Part shown: one piece after another, positions 4,763 to 29,430 of the stretch
Numbering within the stretch: position 1 is the stretch's first letter
Layout of the letters: each line of letters opens with the position of its first letter
Origin: Euzebya rosea
GTDB taxonomy: Bacteria; Actinomycetota; Nitriliruptoria; Euzebyales; Euzebyaceae
Length of the DNA: 64,000 nucleotides
Reading direction: 5' to 3'
NCBI RefSeq assembly: GCF_003073135.1
Contig: NZ_PGDQ01000015.1
Location: 62,001 to 126,000, forward strand
Notes under the pieces: model-generated
Databases searched by the model: none
Told to the model about the DNA's origin: nothing
Seen by the model: the letters and a program-made list of their open reading frames with translations, nothing else
Program-made: the position numbers and the translations under genes

Positions 4763-5740
4763 CTACCCCTCGGTCGAGGAGGCGCGGGCGGCGATGCGTC
4801 GGCGCTGCGGCCCGACCGTGGCAGCGGGATCGGCCGCGGAGGCGAAGCCGGCGCGGAACACCGACCAGCGGGTTGCCGCCGCGCCGGCCAGCATGCCGAG
4901 CGCGCCCACGCGACGAGCCAGCCGCCCGCCGCGCCCCGACGGGGCAAGCGCGACCAGGGCCGACCCGGCGGCGGTTGCCGCCGTCGCGATCCCGGCCCAC
5001 CGGGCCGAGTCGCCCTCGCGGTAGGGGCCGGCCACGTCGTCGTCCAGCGCCCGGTGCATGCGCTCGGTGGTGACCAGCTCCGCCAGTCCGCCGGCGACCG
5101 CCACCGCACGGGCCGCCGGGTCCGTGGGGTCGACCAGCACCGCGGCCGCCCCGCTGGACATCGTCGAGCTGGCGGCGAACACGGCCGGCAGCGTCCGCTC
5201 GGCCTGGTGCCACACGGGCACGGCGGTGTTGGTCAGCAGCACCGCGGTGTAGGTGGAGAGCGCCGGACCCAGGCCTGCCGCCGCGGCGCCGGCGACGCGA
5301 CGGAGCCGGGGGAACCAGCCGAGCGCCTCCAGGCCTGCCGCACCGATCGCGGCCGGGGCGTAGAGCGCGAGGATCCAGGAGCCGACGCTCATCGGCGAGG
5401 TCGGCTTGAGGACCCGCAGCATGTGGTGGAACCGTTCGGGACGGCCGAGGTCGCGGATCAGCAGCGGCGGGCTGGTGGCGACCGCTCCTGCGGCGACCAG
5501 GCGTGCCGTGCGGGCCAGCGTCGTCCTCCCGGTGGCCTCAGCGACCGCCGCCAGCACCGACGACGCACCGGCGGTCCCACCGACGAAGAAGTAGGCGGGC
5601 ACCTCCCACGTCCACACCGGTGCCTTGACGATCGGCAGGTCGTAGTAGCTGCGCGGTTCGGCGTCGGGGACGACCGATCCGCGACCGCCCCGCACCCTGG
5701 GGCGGCGCGTTCCCGCGCCGTCCTGCTGCGCACGGCTCAT
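4763..5740 (-). CDS. NrfD-like membrane anchor subunit of formate dehydrogenase
   Basis: Predicted integral membrane subunit (325 residues) that passes electrons from the iron-sulfur subunit to the quinone pool. The N terminus is cytoplasmic-like and includes YYDLPIVKAPVWTWEVP, typical of the NrfD/PsrC family, followed by roughly eight hydrophobic segments. RDLGRPERFHHMLRV and KPTSPMSVGSW are further NrfD landmarks. The ATG overlaps the end of the Fe-S subunit gene by four bases (ATGA), giving the order catalytic, Fe-S, anchor. The anchor is NrfD-type rather than the haem-b FdnI type, as no conserved His pairs for haem stand out. Confidence 0.85.
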   Translation of the reverse strand: MSRAQQDGAGTRRPRVRGGRGSVVPDAEPRSYYDLPIVKAPVWTWEVPAYFFVGGTAGASSVLAAVAEATGRTTLARTARLVAAGAVATSPPLLIRDLGRPERFHHMLRVLKPTSPMSVGSWILALYAPAAIGAAGLEALGWFPRLRRVAGAAAAGLGPALSTYTAVLLTNTAVPVWHQAERTLPAVFAASSTMSSGAAAVLVDPTDPAARAVAVAGGLAELVTTERMHRALDDDVAGPYREGDSARWAGIATAATAAGSALVALAPSGRGGRLARRVGALGMLAGAAATRWSVFRAGFASAADPAATVGPQRRRIAARASSTEG

Positions 5741-6729
5741 CGGGACGCCCTCCGGCCGGCGACGAGCACCGCGCCGGCGATCCCCGCGACCATGACCGCG
5801 GCTGCCCGGGCCGCTGCCCGCCACATGTCCGGCAGGTCCTTCGTCGTGGCGATCGGGTCGGGCGGCAGGCCGTAGACCTCGGGGTCGTCGAGCAGCAGGA
5901 AGAACGCGCCGCAGCCGTCGACGCCGTTGGCGGTGTCCTCGCCGTACAGCTGGGCCCCCGGCAGCCCGGCGGCGACGACCTCCTCCAGGCGATCCCCGGC
6001 GGCCGCCCGCATGTCCTCCCAGGTGCCGAACATGATGGAGTCGGTGGGACACGACTGGGCGCACGCCGGCGTCATGTCGCCCTTCATGCGGTCGTAGCAC
6101 ATGGTGCACTTGAAGGCGCGACCGTCGTCGGGTCGGCGATCGACCACGCCGTAGGGACATGCCGGCACGCAGTAGCCGCAGCCGTTGCAGATGTCGTCCT
6201 GCAGGACCACGGTGGCGAACTCGGTCTTGAACAGCGCACCGGTCGGGCAGACGTCGAGGCACGCGGCCGTGGTGCAGTGCTTGCACACGTCGGAGGCCAT
6301 CAGCCAGCGGAAGTCGCCGGCGCCCGCGGCGGCGTCGACGGCCAGCGCGATCCCGTCGGCGTCGGCACGCGTGAGGTCCAGCTCCTGGGGATCCCCGGCG
6401 AACCCGCCGGTACCGACCGCGCTGAGGTCGGGGCCCTGCTGGCCGGCCGAGACGAACGCCCCGTCGGCACCCTGCCGGCGGATCTCGGGCAGCCGCTGCT
6501 CGACGAACTTCACGGCCCGCCAGCTCTCGCTGCCCAGGCCGCCGGTGTTGTCGTAGGAGAACCCCGTCAGCTCCAGCGGGGTGGACGGCACGTCGTTCCA
6601 CTCCTTGCAGGCCACCTCGCAGGCCTTGCAGCCGATGCACACGGTGGTGTCGGTGAAGAACGCCATGCGCGGCCGGTCGTCGTCGTAGCCGACGGTGGCG
6701 GGGGAGGAGGTGTAACGGCTGGGGTTCAT
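5737..6729 (-). CDS. Formate dehydrogenase iron-sulfur subunit
   Basis: Four-cluster ferredoxin-like electron-transfer subunit, 330 residues. The first Cys group is CIGCKACEVAC (C31, C34, C37, C41). It is followed by CKHCTTAACLDVCP, CNGCGYCVPACP and the CTMCYDRM ... CAQSCP group, matching FdnH/HybA-type subunits with four [4Fe-4S] clusters. A hydrophobic segment near the C terminus (about 305-325) could be a membrane anchor like that of FdnH. The start overlaps the stop of the catalytic gene (ATGA) and the end overlaps the anchor gene, so the three are coupled. Formate oxidation is inferred from the partner's Sec motif. Confidence 0.92.
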   Translation of the reverse strand: MNPSRYTSSPATVGYDDDRPRMAFFTDTTVCIGCKACEVACKEWNDVPSTPLELTGFSYDNTGGLGSESWRAVKFVEQRLPEIRRQGADGAFVSAGQQGPDLSAVGTGGFAGDPQELDLTRADADGIALAVDAAAGAGDFRWLMASDVCKHCTTAACLDVCPTGALFKTEFATVVLQDDICNGCGYCVPACPYGVVDRRPDDGRAFKCTMCYDRMKGDMTPACAQSCPTDSIMFGTWEDMRAAAGDRLEEVVAAGLPGAQLYGEDTANGVDGCGAFFLLLDDPEVYGLPPDPIATTKDLPDMWRAAARAAAVMVAGIAGAVLVAGRRASR

Positions 6730-9700
6730 GGCCGGTCGCTGCCTGACGGGTCGGCGGGCTGCTGGTCGGTGGGTGATCGGTCCGTGGGGTCCCCGTCGGC
6801 GGTCGGATCGCGACCGTCCCGTTCGGCGTGGCGGCGGACGAGGTCCCGCCGGGCGGGGCCGCGGGGACGCCGACCCGGACGGATGTCGCAGGTGGCCGCC
6901 TTCACCTCCTGGATGTGCACGTTGGGGTCCAGCGCCAGGGCGAACAGGTCGTTGGCGGCGTCACCGGTGCTCAGCCCCCGGAACCCCCAGTGGTAGGGCA
7001 GGCCGATCTGGTGGATCTCCCGCCCACCGACCCGCAGCGGCTGCATGCGCTCGGTGACCAGCACGCGGGCCTCGATGGCGGCCCGGGCGCTGATGACGGT
7101 CGCCCACCCGCCGTTGGCAAGGCCCCGCTCCGCGGCGAGGGCGGGGGAGACCTCGCAGAACATCTCCGGCTGCAGCTCCGACAGGTGGGCGACGGAGCGG
7201 CTCATCGCCCCCGCCGTGTGGTGCTCGGTCAACCGGTAGGTGGTCATCACGCAGGGGTAGGCATCGGCGTCCTGCCCGCTGCCGTGGGAGACGTTCTCGG
7301 GCCGGTCGAACCGTTCGCGCATCGGGTTGGCCTGCTGGCGGTACATGGCGTTGCGCACGGGTGACTCGTGCGGTTCGTAGTGGGTCGGCAGCGGCCCGTC
7401 GACCACCCCGCGCGGCACGAACAACCAGCCACGACCGTCGGCCTGCATCACGAACGGATGGTCACCACCGATGGCTGCCTCCGCCGTCGCACCCTCGGGC
7501 GGGACGTAGTCCGGCGGCTTGTCGCCCTCGAAGTCGGGCACGTCGTGCCCCGTCCAGCGGCCCTGCTCGGCGTCCCACCAGACGTAGGCACGATCCGCCG
7601 ACCACGGGTTGCCCTCGGGGTCCGCCGACGCCCGGTTGTAGAGGATCCGACGGTTCGACGGCCACGCCCAGCCCCATTCCGGCGCCACCCACGACTGCTC
7701 GTTGCCCGGACGGCGACGTCTCGTCTGGTTGACCCCGTCGGCGTAGCAGCCGGTGTAGATCCAGCAGCCCGCCGCGGTCGATCCGTCATCGGCCATCTGG
7801 GTGTAGCTGGACAGCGGCTGCCCGTCGGCGTCCCACCCGTTGATCTCGCGCAGCACCGCGTCGGCCGACGGGTCGTCGTGGGGGCCCTCGGTCGGGTAGT
7901 CCCAGGTCAGGTGGCGGATCGGCTGGTCGCGCTCGAGCTCGCTGTCGGCCAGCTTCGCCTTGATCCGCAGCCCCAGCTGATGGGCGAACCAAAGGTCGCT
8001 GCGGCAGTCACCCTGCGGCTCCACCGCCCGGTCGTGCCACTGGAGCAGCCGCTGGGTGTTGGTGAAGGTGCCGTCCTTCTCCACGTGGCTGGCGGCTGGC
8101 AGGAAGAACACCTCGGTGCCGATGTCGGTGGTGACCATCTCGCCGGTCTCGACCTCGGGGCCGTCCTGCCAGAACGTTGCCGACTCGATCAGCTGGAAGT
8201 CGCGCACGACCAGCCAGTCCAGCTGGGCCATGGCCATCCGGTGCAGCCCCGAGTTGGCGTTGCCGACCGCCGGGTTCTCACCGATGACGATGTAGCCCTC
8301 GACGTCGCCGTCGAGCATGTCCAGCACCGTGCGGTAGGCCGAATGGTCACCGGTCAGCCGCGGCAACCAGCCGAACCCCCAGTCGTTGTCGGCTGTGGCC
8401 GCGTCGCCGAACCAGGCCTTCTGCAGGCTGACCAGGTAGTCGCGCATGTTCCCCCAGAACCCGGCGGTGGCGGCGTTCGCCTCGACATGGCTGGACAGGT
8501 CGGAGGACGTGGAGGCCTGCGGCATCGGGATGTAGCCGGGCAGGATGTTGAACAGCGTCGGGATGTCGGTGGACCCCTGGATGGACGCGTGGCCACGCAG
8601 GGCCAGGATGCCGCCGCCGGACACCCCGATGTTGCCCAGCAGCAGCTGCACGATGGCGGCGGTGCGGATGTACTGCACCCCGACGGTGTGCTGCGTCCAG
8701 CCGACGGCGTAGCAGAAGGCGGCCGCCCGGTCGGGGGTGCCCGTGGACGCCAGCGCCTCGGCGACCCGGAGGAACGTCTCGCGTGGCACGCCGCACACCT
8801 CCTCCACCATCTCGGGGGTGTAGCGGGCGAAGTGGCGGCGCAGGACCTGCATGACGCACAGCGGGTCGGTGAGGGTGGGGTCCTCGTGGGGCGGGTTGCC
8901 GCCCTCGAGCTCGCCCCCGTGCGCGCCGGCCCGTTCGGTCTCGGCGGCCGTGGAGTCACGATCGCCGGCCGCACCGGCGGCGGTCATGCCGCGGTACTGC
9001 CAGCTGGCGGTGTCGTAGGTGCCGGTCTCGGGGTCCCAGCCGGAGAACAACCCCTCGATGTCGGGCTGGTCTTCGCCGCCGTCCTCGGTGTCGAGGAACG
9101 ACTCGTCCAGCAGCGTCGCGGCGTTGGTGTAGCGCTCGACGTACTCGCGGAACCACTGCTCGGTGGTCAGCAGGTGGTTGACGATCCCGCCGAGGAAGGC
9201 GATGTCGCTGCCGGCGCGCAGCGGCACGTGGATGTCGGCCACGGCGCTGGTCCTGGTGAACCGCGGGTCGACGTGGATGATCGTCGCGCCACGCCGCTTG
9301 GCGTCCATCACGTGCTGGAACCCCACCGGATGGCACTCGGCCATGTTGGAGCCCTGGATCACCACCACGTCAGCGTTGGCGAGGTCCTGCAGGAAGGTCG
9401 TGGCACCGCCACGCCCGAACGACGTCCCCAGACCGGGGACGGTGGAGGAGTGTCATATCCGGGCCTGGTTCTCGACCTGGATGGCCCCGAGCGCCGTGTA
9501 GAGCTTCTTGAGGAGGTAGTTCTCCTCGTTGTCGAGGGTGGCCCCGCCGAGGTGCGCCAGCCCCATCGTGCGCCGCAGCGGCACGCCGTCGTCGTCGCGG
9601 TCCTCCCACGTGCGGGCACGGGTCGCGATCACCCGGTCGGCGATCATGTCCATCGCCACGTCGAGGTCGAGGTCCTCCCAGTCCGTGGCGTGCGGCGGGC

Positions 9701-10022
9701 GGTACCGGACCCGTGTCTCCCGCAGCGGCGAGTCCAGCATCGTGCGGGTTGCCGCACCCTTGGGGCACAGCTTGCCGCGCGAGATCGGCGAGTCGGGGTC
9801 GCCCTCGATCCGCAGGACCTCCCCGTCCCGGACGTGGACCCGCTGCCCGCAGCCGACGGCGCAGTAGGGGCAGATCGACTGCACGACCCGGGCGGCATCC
9901 TCGGTCCGGGGCCGCCGGGCCGCCGACGCCGCCGACTGGGCGGCACGTCCGCGACCGAGCAGGTCGCCGGTCCGGATCTGCCGGGCGACCGGCCACGCGT
10001 CGAGGAGCTGGAGCAGTCTCAT
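6726..10022 (-). CDS. fdhA: Formate dehydrogenase catalytic subunit, selenoprotein (in-frame UGA)
   Basis: Molybdopterin-dependent formate dehydrogenase, 1098 residues if UGA at 9453-9455 is read as selenocysteine (residue 190). The N-terminal part has a [4Fe-4S] site, CPYCAVGC and then LCPKG. Reading UGA as Sec joins QARI-U-HSSTVPGLGTSFGRG, the FDH active-site motif in which Sec is followed by His; E. coli FdnG has Sec at a similar position. The frame continues unbroken to 6726 through molybdopterin-domain motifs such as GSNMAECHPVGF. A perfect SECIS-like hairpin follows the UGA. There is no Tat RR motif at the N terminus, so the subunit may face the cytoplasm. The start is the ATG giving MRLLQLLDAWPV; an upstream in-frame codon at 10079 is an alternative. 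An automatic caller would split this gene at the UGA. Confidence 0.95.
9421..9455 (-). promoter_or_regulatory. Selenocysteine UGA codon with SECIS hairpin
   Basis: UGA occupies 9455-9453. Eighteen bases later (minus strand) comes the loop GGTCT (9434-9430), closed by a perfect seven-base stem CGTCCCC (9441-9435) and GGGGACG (9429-9423). The E. coli fdhF element has the same GGUCU loop at the same 18-base distance from its UGA. SelB binds this loop in E. coli. The bulged U of the E. coli stem is not seen here. Confidence 0.9.
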
Positions 10023-10109: not shown

Positions 10110-13100
10110 TCACTCCGCGAGCAGCCGCCGCAGCCGGGTCTCCAGGGTGTCCGACAGGGCTGCGGACCCACCGATGAGGACCAGCTCGGCGACCTCGTCG
10201 CGGTGGGTGCCGACGAAGCCGAGCAGCTCCTCGGCCCGGTCGTTCGTGTCGCCGTCGGCCAGCAGCAGGACACTGCCGGTCCCGACCGCCGCGCTCGCGG
10301 CCAGCGCGTCGGGGAACCGCCTGCCGGTGGCCACCCAGACCCGGCGGGGCGACGTCCCGGCGTCCACCGCCAGGTCGGCCACGATCCGGGCGGTGGAGTA
10401 CCGGTCGGTCCCGCTGACGCGCAGGGTCCGGGCGCCGGTGTCGCGGACCTGCTGCTCGGCGTCGACCGACACCGCGGAAGGCCCACCGAGGACCAGGACG
10501 GACGTGGGGGACAGTGTCCTCAGGGCGTCGAGCGTGCTCGGCGACAGGCCGTCGGTCGCCGCGAGCAGGATCGGGTGCCCGTCGGCCGCCCCGTGGGCAG
10601 CGGCGACGACGGCGTCGGACCACCCCTGCTCGGGGTCGGGGTGGGTGCCGCGGACGACCGCCACGCGTGAGCCGTCGCCCCCCTCCGCCACGACGCGCTG
10701 CGCGATCAGCCCGGCCGTGGCGAACCGGTCGCTGCCGGCGAGGCGTTCCACGGCCAGGCCGGCAGCACGCAGGTCGGCGTCCACCCGGGCCGAGAGGGCC
10801 TGCTCGCCGCCCAGCAGCACGGCCCGGGTCGCCCCCAGTCGGACGATCTCGGCGGCCGTGTCGGCCGACAGGCCGTCCCCGGCCGTCAGCAGCAGGGAGG
10901 CGTCCATCATGGCGGCCAACGGGCCGCCGGCGATGGCGTCGGGCCACGCGTCGGCGCGTGCGACGACCACCGTGGATGCGGTCTGGCGGGTTGCGGCCGA
11001 GAGCGCGGCGGCCGTCGCCGTCCGCGACGGTCCCGCCACGCGGCTGATGGCGACGGGGTCCGGGTCGGACCACAGCAGCCGGCCGTCGGCGCCCGCACGG
11101 GCGGCCGTGAGGGTCATCGGGACGTCGCCGAAGACGGCGAAGGACTGGACCAGCAGGTCCACGCCGTCGCCCGCGCCGTCGAGGTCGCCGGCCGGCTCGA
11201 TGGTGGTGAACCCGTCGGGCACGCCGGGCACCGTCCAGCGGACCGCACCGCCGTCCAGGGCGAACACATCGGTCCCGGTCGCGTCGGCGTCGGTCCCCCC
11301 GCCGGCGCCCTCGTCGCCGTCGCCGCTGTCGCCGTAGCCGAACGCGACGTCGAAGCCGAAGTCGATGACGACGGCCTCGGCCCCACCGTCGCCGTCGACG
11401 TCGCCGAGGACGGTCAGGTCGGCGAAGATCGGGAGGTCGCGGGTCAGCAGCGTCTCGCCGTCGTCACCGGCTTCCACCAGCAGCAGGCTGGTCTCCGTGC
11501 CGGACTGGGGGTCGTAGTCGAACCCCATCAGGACGACGTCGTCGGTCCCGTCGCCGTCGGCGTCCGCCGCGCGACTGTCGTACCAGAACGTGGTTCCCTC
11601 GGTGACGGTGGTCAGCAGCTCGTCGCCGTCGTCGCCGGCGAGACGGATCAGGTGCAGCTCACCGGACTCCTCGCCGGTGTCGCTGTCGTAGGTGAACACC
11701 TGGCGCCGCAGGACGATGTCCTTGCCGGCGACGCCGTCGATGGGGGTGGTCGCCACCAACGAGACGCCGTCGCTGTAGGCGTCCCCGTCGACCGTCGGAG
11801 CGGTCCAGGTCCACAGCTGGCTGCCGTCCGTGGCGTCGAGCACGGTCAGGTGTGGCCGGGACGACTCGGGGTCGGAGGAAGCGGACCGGTCGGTGACGAG
11901 CACGTCCACGGCGCCGTCGCCCGTCAGGTCGCCGGGTGCACGCGCACCGACCGACTCCGACAGGACCTCGTGGGACCAGGCCGTCGACAGGTCAGCGCCG
12001 TCGAGCAGCAGGACGTCGTGGTGGGCACGCGTGCTCGTTTCCTGGCACTGCAGCTGGATCAGCAGCTGGGTGCACGTCCGGGATCCGTTCGCCCCGTGGG
12101 TACGGGTCACCAGCACGTCGGTCAGGGCGTCCCCGTCGATGTCGGGCACGGGCACGGCGTGCAGGACGGTGCCCTGTCCCGACTCCGCCAGCTCGCGGAT
12201 CGTGGTGCCGTCGGCGCCGTCGACCAGCAGGATCGTCGACGCCCCCTCGAAGGACTGTGTCTCCGTGGTCGTCACCGGGCCGGGGAACGTCCCCGTGCGT
12301 TCGGCATCGCTGGACTCGGTGTAGGTCGTCCGCGTGCTGATCAGGTCGAGCGCGGCGTCCCCGTCGAGGTCACCGGACGCGAGGAAGGTGAGGGGGAAGT
12401 TGGAGGACTCGATCCGGTAGGTCTCCCCACCGGTGTCGACGTCCCAGCTGTAGGTGTAGCTGACGTGCCCGTCGACGGCGTCGCGCCACAACGACGTGCC
12501 GGTGGCACCGCTGAGCATGCTGACCTCCCAGGTGACGGACTCCACGAACTCGTCCCGGCAGGAGGTCTCGTCGCAGTGGCCGGATCCCGCGTACTCGGTC
12601 AGGCCGACACCGGTGGCCAGCAGGTCACGACGACCGTCGCCGTCCACGTCGGGCACGGCCTGCAGCAGCGTGCCGACCAGCCCGTCCGGCTGCGGTGCGA
12701 TCCACAGCGGCGCGCCGTCGACCCCGCTGAGCGCGACGAGCGTGACCCCCGCCGCGTCGAAGGTCAGGGTCACGATGTCGTCGTGGCCGTCACGGTCGAG
12801 GTCGCCGATCGGGAACGTGTCGGACCCGTCGTCACCGCCGTACACCACACCGACCGGCATCCCCATCTGCGCCCAGGCGCCGTCCCGGTTCCCGGCCGCG
12901 GTGCCGTCGTCGCTGCCGTCACCGTCCGCCACGTCGGCCGCCGGCCGCGGGGCCCCGTCGACGGTGAGGACGCGGCCCTCGACGTCGCCGGCCCGCACCG
13001 CGAGGTCCAGGAGCGCCGTCGCGACGGGGCCGTCGCCCGCTGCCGCTCGGGCGTCCCGCAGGCGTTGTGCGTCGGTCGAGGGGGACAGGACGGAGGTCGA

Positions 13101-13238
13101 CCGGTGCTCCATCGTGGGTGCGGTGGACCCTGCACGTGCTGCAGGGGCCGCGGCGAGCAGGAGCAGCAGCACGGTGAGCCCGGCGAGGCCACGGGCGGCT
13201 GGCCGGGCAGCCGGCCGGGCGGAGGGGGGCAGGGACAC
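10110..13238 (-). CDS. Secreted FG-GAP repeat protein with CWB2 cell-wall-binding repeats
   Basis: Large exported surface protein of 1042 residues. A Sec signal peptide (about 1-36, ending AAPAARA) is followed by many Asp-rich FG-GAP/VCBS-like motifs, for example VDGDGRRDLL, DIDGDALTDVLV, DADGDGTDDVVL and DVDGDGGAEAVV. These are calcium-binding beta-propeller blades, about residues 120-690. The C-terminal third (about 730-1042) holds three CWB2 units with the typical SRVAG/ERLAGSDRFATA/LRVSGTDRYSTA starts and AVLLGG or LVLGGPSAVS strands. CWB2 units anchor proteins non-covalently to the cell wall. The start is GTG. The ligand of the propeller is unknown. Confidence 0.9.
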   Translation of the reverse strand: MSLPPSARPAARPAARGLAGLTVLLLLLAAAPAARAGSTAPTMEHRSTSVLSPSTDAQRLRDARAAAGDGPVATALLDLAVRAGDVEGRVLTVDGAPRPAADVADGDGSDDGTAAGNRDGAWAQMGMPVGVVYGGDDGSDTFPIGDLDRDGHDDIVTLTFDAAGVTLVALSGVDGAPLWIAPQPDGLVGTLLQAVPDVDGDGRRDLLATGVGLTEYAGSGHCDETSCRDEFVESVTWEVSMLSGATGTSLWRDAVDGHVSYTYSWDVDTGGETYRIESSNFPLTFLASGDLDGDAALDLISTRTTYTESSDAERTGTFPGPVTTTETQSFEGASTILLVDGADGTTIRELAESGQGTVLHAVPVPDIDGDALTDVLVTRTHGANGSRTCTQLLIQLQCQETSTRAHHDVLLLDGADLSTAWSHEVLSESVGARAPGDLTGDGAVDVLVTDRSASSDPESSRPHLTVLDATDGSQLWTWTAPTVDGDAYSDGVSLVATTPIDGVAGKDIVLRRQVFTYDSDTGEESGELHLIRLAGDDGDELLTTVTEGTTFWYDSRAADADGDGTDDVVLMGFDYDPQSGTETSLLLVEAGDDGETLLTRDLPIFADLTVLGDVDGDGGAEAVVIDFGFDVAFGYGDSGDGDEGAGGGTDADATGTDVFALDGGAVRWTVPGVPDGFTTIEPAGDLDGAGDGVDLLVQSFAVFGDVPMTLTAARAGADGRLLWSDPDPVAISRVAGPSRTATAAALSAATRQTASTVVVARADAWPDAIAGGPLAAMMDASLLLTAGDGLSADTAAEIVRLGATRAVLLGGEQALSARVDADLRAAGLAVERLAGSDRFATAGLIAQRVVAEGGDGSRVAVVRGTHPDPEQGWSDAVVAAAHGAADGHPILLAATDGLSPSTLDALRTLSPTSVLVLGGPSAVSVDAEQQVRDTGARTLRVSGTDRYSTARIVADLAVDAGTSPRRVWVATGRRFPDALAASAAVGTGSVLLLADGDTNDRAEELLGFVGTHRDEVAELVLIGGSAALSDTLETRLRRLLAE

Positions 13239-27525: not shown

Positions 27526-29430
27526 ATGGTTCGCGGTTTCCCCTTCATCTCAGCGCGCGCGGCTGCCGCTCTGTCCCTCCTGGGACTGCTGGTGGCCGCA
27601 CTCGTCGTGCCCGCGTTCGCGTCGGAGTGGGCGGTGGTCGGCGGCGGCCCCGCTGATCCCGCGGCGTGGCCCTCGACGGTCGCGCTGATCCGGGCCGACG
27701 CGTCCGACGACGTGGCCGGACAGTTCTGCACCGGAACTGCCGTCGCCGAGGACCTCGTGCTGACGGCCGCCCACTGCTTCTCCTCGATCACGGGCGAGCA
27801 GTCGCGCACCGCATCCGACGTGCGGGTGGTGGCCGGACGGGCGGACCTGACCGACCGCAGCGTGGGCACGGACCGGCTGGGCGTCGACCTGTACGTGCAC
27901 CCCGACTTCATGGCCGCCAACCACCACAACGACGTGGCCCTGCTGCGCGTCGATGCACCCCTCCACGTGCCCGTCCAGCGGCTTGCCGAGGCCGGCAGGG
28001 CCACGCCCGATCCCGACACGGTCGGCGTCATCCTCGGCTGGGGGCGGACGGGGTCGGGGCCCGAGGCCTCGTCCTCGTCGACCGCGGTGCTGCACGAGGC
28101 CCATGTGCCGATCGTCTCGGCGGCCTCGTGCGCCGACGCCTTCGACCCCTCACCCGATCCCTCCCTGCACATCTGTGCCGGGGGCGGCGGGACCGAGGAC
28201 GATCCCCGACCCGACGCCTGCCGCGGCGACTCGGGCGGTCCGCTGCTGTTCCCGGTCGCCGACGAACCCGCCGAGCAGTTCGGCATCACCGCCTTCGGGT
28301 CGCCCCAGTGCGGCGTGGGCCAGCCCGGCGTGTACGCCAGCGTCGCCGCAGCCCGCCCGTTCATCGACGACGTCATCGCCGGCAACGTGGGACCGACCGT
28401 GCCCGAGGACGACCCCACGTTGGTCGACCGGGTCGTGCGCGTGGCGGCCGACTCGACGACGACGACGTCGCCGATCGAGCAGGCCGTGGCGTCCTCTCGC
28501 GCGGTCTTCGCCGAGGCCAGCAGCGACGTGGCCGTCATCACCCGCGACGACGCGTTCCCCGACGGGTTGGCCGGCAGCGCTCTGCTCTACGGCCGTGGAC
28601 CGCTGCTGTTCACCTCCTCCCGGGGCCCCCTGGCCGACGCGACCCGGCAGGAGCTCCGCCGTGCGCTTCGCCCCGGCGCCACGGTGTACGTCCTCGGCGG
28701 CCGGGCGGCCGTCCCGGAGGAGGCCGTCGAGGCGGTGCGCGCGGAGGGATTCGTCCCGGTCCGCCTCGCCGGTGACAGCCGCGAGACAACCGCGGTCGCG
28801 GTCGCCGACGAGGTCGTCGCCCGCTACGGCAAGGACAACCGACCCCCGTTCGGCACGGTCGTGCTCGCGACGTCCGGGGCGTGGCCGGACGCCGTGCTGG
28901 CCGGGCAGCTGTCGGTGTGGTGGGGCTACCCGATCCTGCTGGTGCCGGCCGACCGGATGCCGGAAGCGGTGGAGGCCGCCCTGCGGCGCATGCAGGTCGA
29001 CCGCCTGCTCGTCGTCGGTGGCCCGTCCGCGGTCAGCGACACGGTGGTCGACGTGGCCGCCCGGGTGAGCGGCGCCGATGAGGTCCAGCGGCTCGCGGGT
29101 GCCAGCCGGGCCGAGACCGGCAGCCAGATCGCGGCGTTCCATCGCCTGGAGCTCGCCGCGCGTGGACAGGCCCCTCCCGACACCGCGGTCGCCGTCAACG
29201 TGCGTCGCGACGACGGGTATGCCCACATCCTCTCCGCCGTGCCGATCGTCGGCGCCACGGCCGGGGTGTTCGTGCCGGTCGAGGGCGAGCACGGCGACGT
29301 CCTGCCGGGCCTGGTCGAGCTCCGCATCTGCGGCATGGGTGCGCAACCCCTCGCCGTCGGCGGCCATGACCTGATCACCGACGACGTGATGACCCGGGTC
29401 GCCCGAACGCTGGGGCAAGCAGCCTGCTGA
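27526..29430 (+). CDS. Secreted trypsin-like serine protease with CWB2 cell-wall-binding repeats
   Basis: 634 residues. A signal peptide (about 1-31, ending AFAS) is followed by an S1 protease domain (about 35-290): TAAHCF with the His, HNDVALLRV with the Asp, and CRGDSGGP with the catalytic Ser. All three residues are present. Cys pairs suggest disulfides. The C-terminal half (about 330-634) holds CWB2-like units (FPDGLAGSALL, VYVLGGRAAVP, RLAGDSRETTA, LVVGGPSAVSDT, RLAGASRAETG). It is thus a protease held on the cell wall. Neither pro-peptide cleavage site nor substrate can be assigned. The ATG precedes the signal directly. Confidence 0.9.
   Translation: MVRGFPFISARAAAALSLLGLLVAALVVPAFASEWAVVGGGPADPAAWPSTVALIRADASDDVAGQFCTGTAVAEDLVLTAAHCFSSITGEQSRTASDVRVVAGRADLTDRSVGTDRLGVDLYVHPDFMAANHHNDVALLRVDAPLHVPVQRLAEAGRATPDPDTVGVILGWGRTGSGPEASSSSTAVLHEAHVPIVSAASCADAFDPSPDPSLHICAGGGGTEDDPRPDACRGDSGGPLLFPVADEPAEQFGITAFGSPQCGVGQPGVYASVAAARPFIDDVIAGNVGPTVPEDDPTLVDRVVRVAADSTTTTSPIEQAVASSRAVFAEASSDVAVITRDDAFPDGLAGSALLYGRGPLLFTSSRGPLADATRQELRRALRPGATVYVLGGRAAVPEEAVEAVRAEGFVPVRLAGDSRETTAVAVADEVVARYGKDNRPPFGTVVLATSGAWPDAVLAGQLSVWWGYPILLVPADRMPEAVEAALRRMQVDRLLVVGGPSAVSDTVVDVAARVSGADEVQRLAGASRAETGSQIAAFHRLELAARGQAPPDTAVAVNVRRDDGYAHILSAVPIVGATAGVFVPVEGEHGDVLPGLVELRICGMGAQPLAVGGHDLITDDVMTRVARTLGQAAC

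Follow-up and report, generated by a model that had tools for sequence, protein, structure and literature searches.

A selenocysteine-containing formate dehydrogenase operon in Euzebya rosea

Formate dehydrogenases (FDHs) that contain selenocysteine (Sec) are a well-known class and are common in actinobacteria. Several comparative-genomics papers catalogue bacterial selenoproteins with FDH among them. In Actinomycetospora chiangmaiensis, which encodes three Sec-FDH systems, the removal of formic acid is selenium-dependent, and Sec-FDH, SelA, SelB and SelD have been reported to be expressed (PMC7176365). The FDH1 system of A. chiangmaiensis DSM 45062 comprises a Sec-containing FdhA of 1078 residues, FdhB and FdhC, with a permease, selA and selB nearby (PMC7176365). 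The locus described here, which lies in a 64,000-nucleotide stretch of Euzebya rosea DNA (the window), resembles FDH1 in encoding a Sec-containing FdhA together with FdhB and FdhC (Table 1). A literature search found no paper linking Nitriliruptor to Sec-FDH.

Table 1. Features of the fdhABC locus, in window coordinates.
Feature	Position	Strand	Basis
fdhA, FDH catalytic alpha subunit, 1098 residues, Sec190	6726..10022	-	NF041513, Pfam, phmmer against 1kqf_A
UGA read as Sec190, followed by His	9453..9455	-	aligned with the Sec of FdnG; homologue codons
SECIS hairpin, 7-bp stem CGUCCCC/GGGGACG, loop GGUCU	9423..9441	-	comparison across homologues
fdhB, iron-sulfur beta subunit	5737..6729	-	Fer4_11 and other 4Fe-4S models
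fdhC, NrfD-type membrane subunit	4763..5740	-	NrfD PF03916, E 1.2e-14

Translation of the fdhA frame, which spans 1099 codons, reveals stops only at codons 190 and 1099, both of which are TGA, the latter being the true end of the gene. A preliminary description of this DNA had proposed a single frame split solely by the first of these codons, with QARI before it and HSSTVPGLGTSFGRG after it; both statements are borne out by the translation, in which VENQARI precedes the TGA and HSSTVPGLGTSFGRGGATTF follows it. The two sides of the codon share a common coding signature, GC at codon positions 1/2/3 being 0.741/0.508/0.947 before the TGA and 0.673/0.502/0.957 just past it. The stretch 9452-6726 lacks a usable start where it opens, since no start codon occurs after the TGA until the GTG at 9368; it is accordingly not a gene in its own right but simply an open frame. 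Apart from the TGA at codon 190, the 1098 codons of fdhA contain neither a stop nor a frameshift, and the decay downstream of the UGA that had been named as a sign against a selenoprotein is absent.

The read-through protein scored 1867.4 bits against the NCBIfam model NF041513 (formate_DH_Act; cut-off 1400) over residues 7-1066, which upholds the initial assignment of the protein as a formate dehydrogenase, and 932 bits against TIGR01553 (FDH-N alpha; cut-off 814). It contains the three molybdenum oxidoreductase domains Molybdop_Fe4S4, Molybdopterin and Molydop_binding of Pfam. Its best match in the PDB by phmmer is 1kqf_A, the FdnG of E. coli (E 7.7e-214), and residue X of 1kqf, which is Sec, sits opposite the fdhA TGA in the alignment. 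The proposal that the UGA occupies the active-site Sec position of FDH, followed by His, is therefore correct. The ATG start of fdhB overlaps the stop of fdhA, the two genes sharing four bases (ATGA), and the same four-base overlap joins fdhB to fdhC. FdhB scored 163 bits against TIGR01582 (FDH-beta), below the cut-off of 334.7 for that model. Among 80 related loci fdhA is adjoined by a beta-subunit homologue in 73 and by an NrfD-type homologue in 70. No twin-arginine (RR) motif was seen when the N-terminus of FdhA (MRLLQLLDAWPVARQIRTGDLLGRG) was read by eye, and the catalytic subunit therefore probably faces the cytoplasm. Directly upstream of fdhA, at 10110-13238 on the minus strand, the window encodes a 1042-residue protein with three cell wall binding repeats 2 (PF04122). 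A tRNA-Val (gac) lies at 27987-28074 on the plus strand, and no other tRNA was found in the window.

The codon at the Sec site was compared in 80 homologues drawn from species genomes, which display 61-71% identity to FdhA. TGA is present in 72, TAG in three and TGC (Cys) in five. In the genomes nearest Euzebya rosea, TGA occupies the site in all 15 of the homologues retrieved (41-94% identity), including the two nearest of them, which are 94% and 75% identical. A Cys codon in all close relatives, which had been put forward as evidence against Sec, was not observed. The TGA cannot be a chance feature, given its alignment with the Sec of E. coli FdnG and its retention by 72 of the 80 homologues. 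The three TAG carriers, from Goekera (L063:4562), Blastococcus (L067:4565) and Geodermatophilus (L077:4565), are all Geodermatophilaceae and retain an intact SECIS. In this family a tRNA-Sec with the anticodon CUA has been reported (PMC5330540), and TAG at the fdhA Sec site matches the reported recoding of Sec to UAG. The Euzebya rosea genome itself encodes further FDH homologues (L103-L105); the nearest of these to fdhA, L103, contains Cys, and the others could not be aligned there. Related genomes encode a second and distant family of FDHs (L128, L129 and L131; 30-40% identity) that also displays TGA at the Sec site and a hairpin with a GGUCU loop; one of these genomes belongs to the same genus as Euzebya rosea and does not contain the present fdhA.

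The SECIS hairpin was tested by comparison because Rfam, at gathering thresholds, gave no match in the window. Counted from the U of the UGA, the hairpin begins 14 nt downstream. In the codon alignment, 98.7% of the 79 Sec (TGA or TAG) sequences can form every pair of its 6-bp core, and none of the Cys sequences, only five in number, can do so. Of the 3145 positions in the gene that were scanned for hairpins this one ranks first; the runner-up, which overlaps it, reaches 40.5%. Stem pair 3 is seen as C-G, U-G, U-A and G-C, and pair 6 as C-G and G-C. The changes on both sides of the stem at these two pairs all fall at wobble positions, such that the protein and the stem are preserved together. 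Among 222 conserved positions, synonymous diversity is lowest at proline codon 196, which contributes bases to three stem pairs, and the loop in every Sec sequence is GGUCU, AGUCU or AGUUU. The SECIS of E. coli fdhF likewise has a GGUCU loop. Folding energy alone is unconvincing for the hairpin in this GC-rich DNA, with z of -2.7 for the 21-nt element, 0.02 for 41 nt and -0.1 for 61 nt. A genome search with one narrow, family-specific pattern found no second copy of the SECIS and its flanking motif. In distant FDH families (L121, L128, L129 and L131) a TGA is retained, and a similar hairpin bearing a GGUCU or AGUUU loop was noted by eye.

The genome of Euzebya rosea (5.5 Mb in 40 contigs; completeness 97.6%, contamination 1.4%) contains all four genes of the Sec decoding machinery for which a search had been suggested. 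On contig C9 selA and selB scored 449.7 bits and, with parts joined, 308.7 bits, respectively, and selD on contig C2 scored 381.9 bits, all three above cut-off. SelD displays the Cys form of the active site (GAGCGCK). The tRNA-Sec (selC), identified by ARAGORN on contig C6 at 65 bits, has the anticodon TCA (UCA). The sulfur-transfer accessory gene fdhD is located on contig C10 (160 bits). Between selA and selB lies a gene (L137:3923-6091, minus strand, contig C9 of this genome, G000) whose product was identified by eye as a ClC-like channel protein carrying CBS domains; the gene is in the same orientation as selA and selB, overlaps the start of selB and was seen near fdhA in none of the 80 related loci.

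One or both of selA and selB occur no more than 4 kb from fdhA in 20 of the 80 related loci. Among the 41 related genomes in the matches listed, a selA match is present in 21 of the 22 with a TGA-bearing FDH homologue versus eight of the 19 without (Fisher p 3e-4, not corrected for kinship); in G018 and G023, which count among the 21, selA is only a partial or split match that falls short of the family cut-off. The single genome with a TGA-bearing homologue and no selA match, G019, is 78% complete. In G018 a TGA-bearing fdhA (C17:70983-74237) occurs together with a selA split into two frames (C20:345521-346817), and no tRNA-Sec scored above the threshold used. This pattern could reflect sequencing frameshifts and a missed tRNA or, alternatively, decay of the Sec trait.

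Taken together, fdhABC is almost certainly the operon of a membrane-bound, Sec-containing actinobacterial formate dehydrogenase in which Sec is inserted at the UGA of codon 190. By analogy with the families to which these proteins belong, tRNA-Sec(UCA) would be charged by SelA using selenophosphate from SelD, and SelB would bind the SECIS hairpin and bring the charged tRNA to the ribosome, which would insert Sec at codon 190 rather than stopping. Sec190 is predicted to ligate the molybdenum (or tungsten) of the bis-molybdopterin cofactor and, with the adjacent His, to act in formate oxidation. Electrons would then probably travel by way of the iron-sulfur clusters in FdhA and in FdhB to reach the NrfD-type subunit and, from there, the quinone pool.

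A stop codon does break the frame, and the locus might on that ground be a pseudogene in which a nonsense mutation truncated a once Cys- or Sec-containing enzyme. Such an origin is very improbable in view of the 1098 codons free of any other stop or frameshift, the presence of this TGA both in 72 of 80 homologues and in the nearest relatives, the constraint on the SECIS and the intact sel genes; it was rejected on the conservation of the TGA and its hairpin across genera. That an error in sequencing or assembly made the TGA from a Cys codon (TGC or TGT) is extremely unlikely. Homologues with TGC exist (5/80), but the same TGA occurs independently in dozens of genomes, including those of the 94% and 75% identical homologues, and the hairpin present here is missing from the Cys homologues; the sharing of the TGA by independent genomes led to the rejection of this explanation. 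Genome-wide reassignment of UGA, for example to Trp or Gly, in place of local recoding is likewise exceedingly improbable. No support for it was found, the genome encodes SelB and a dedicated tRNA-Sec(UCA), and fdhA itself ends in TGA, as both the point where the family match stops and the ATGA shared with fdhB indicate; it was rejected as TGA serves as a stop in the same gene.

The selenoprotein reading of the split frame means that annotation should treat fdhA as a single gene encoding 1098 residues. The initial observation was correct but ordinary, the system being of an already known kind, and what is new is the identification of one more member only. Our understanding of selenocysteine decoding is unchanged by this finding; what is gained is a clean collection of homologues with Sec, TAG-encoded Sec or Cys, across which the SECIS hairpin tracks the Sec codon. 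It is conceivable, if doubtful, that the entire Sec machinery, spread over several contigs, is kept in this lineage for the single selenoprotein FdhA, because no second SECIS-like motif was found and the nearest homologue in the genome has Cys; the motif searched for was one narrow pattern, with which other selenoproteins remain compatible.

NCBIfam holds a model, NF041513, that spans the entire read-through protein: FdhA residues 7-1066 align with positions 3-1065 of its 1067, thus over the full length, and apart from a C-terminal tail of ~30 residues past the model nothing of note distinguishes the protein. FdnG/FdoG of E. coli (1kqf) have the same domains, and their Sec-His site reads NQARV-U-H, against NQARI-U-H here. 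Unlike the exported FDH-N of the FdnG type, FdhA, as read from its sequence, has no twin-arginine motif. The membrane subunit is of the NrfD type, unlike FdnI, which is a cytochrome b. TGA-bearing homologues are present in three other Actinomycetospora species (L085-L087). The arrangement differs from that of A. chiangmaiensis FDH1 in that selA and selB (C9), selC (C6), selD (C2) and fdhABC (C15) are located on separate contigs. Where FDH1 lists a permease beside selA, Euzebya rosea has the ClC-like channel gene between selA and selB.
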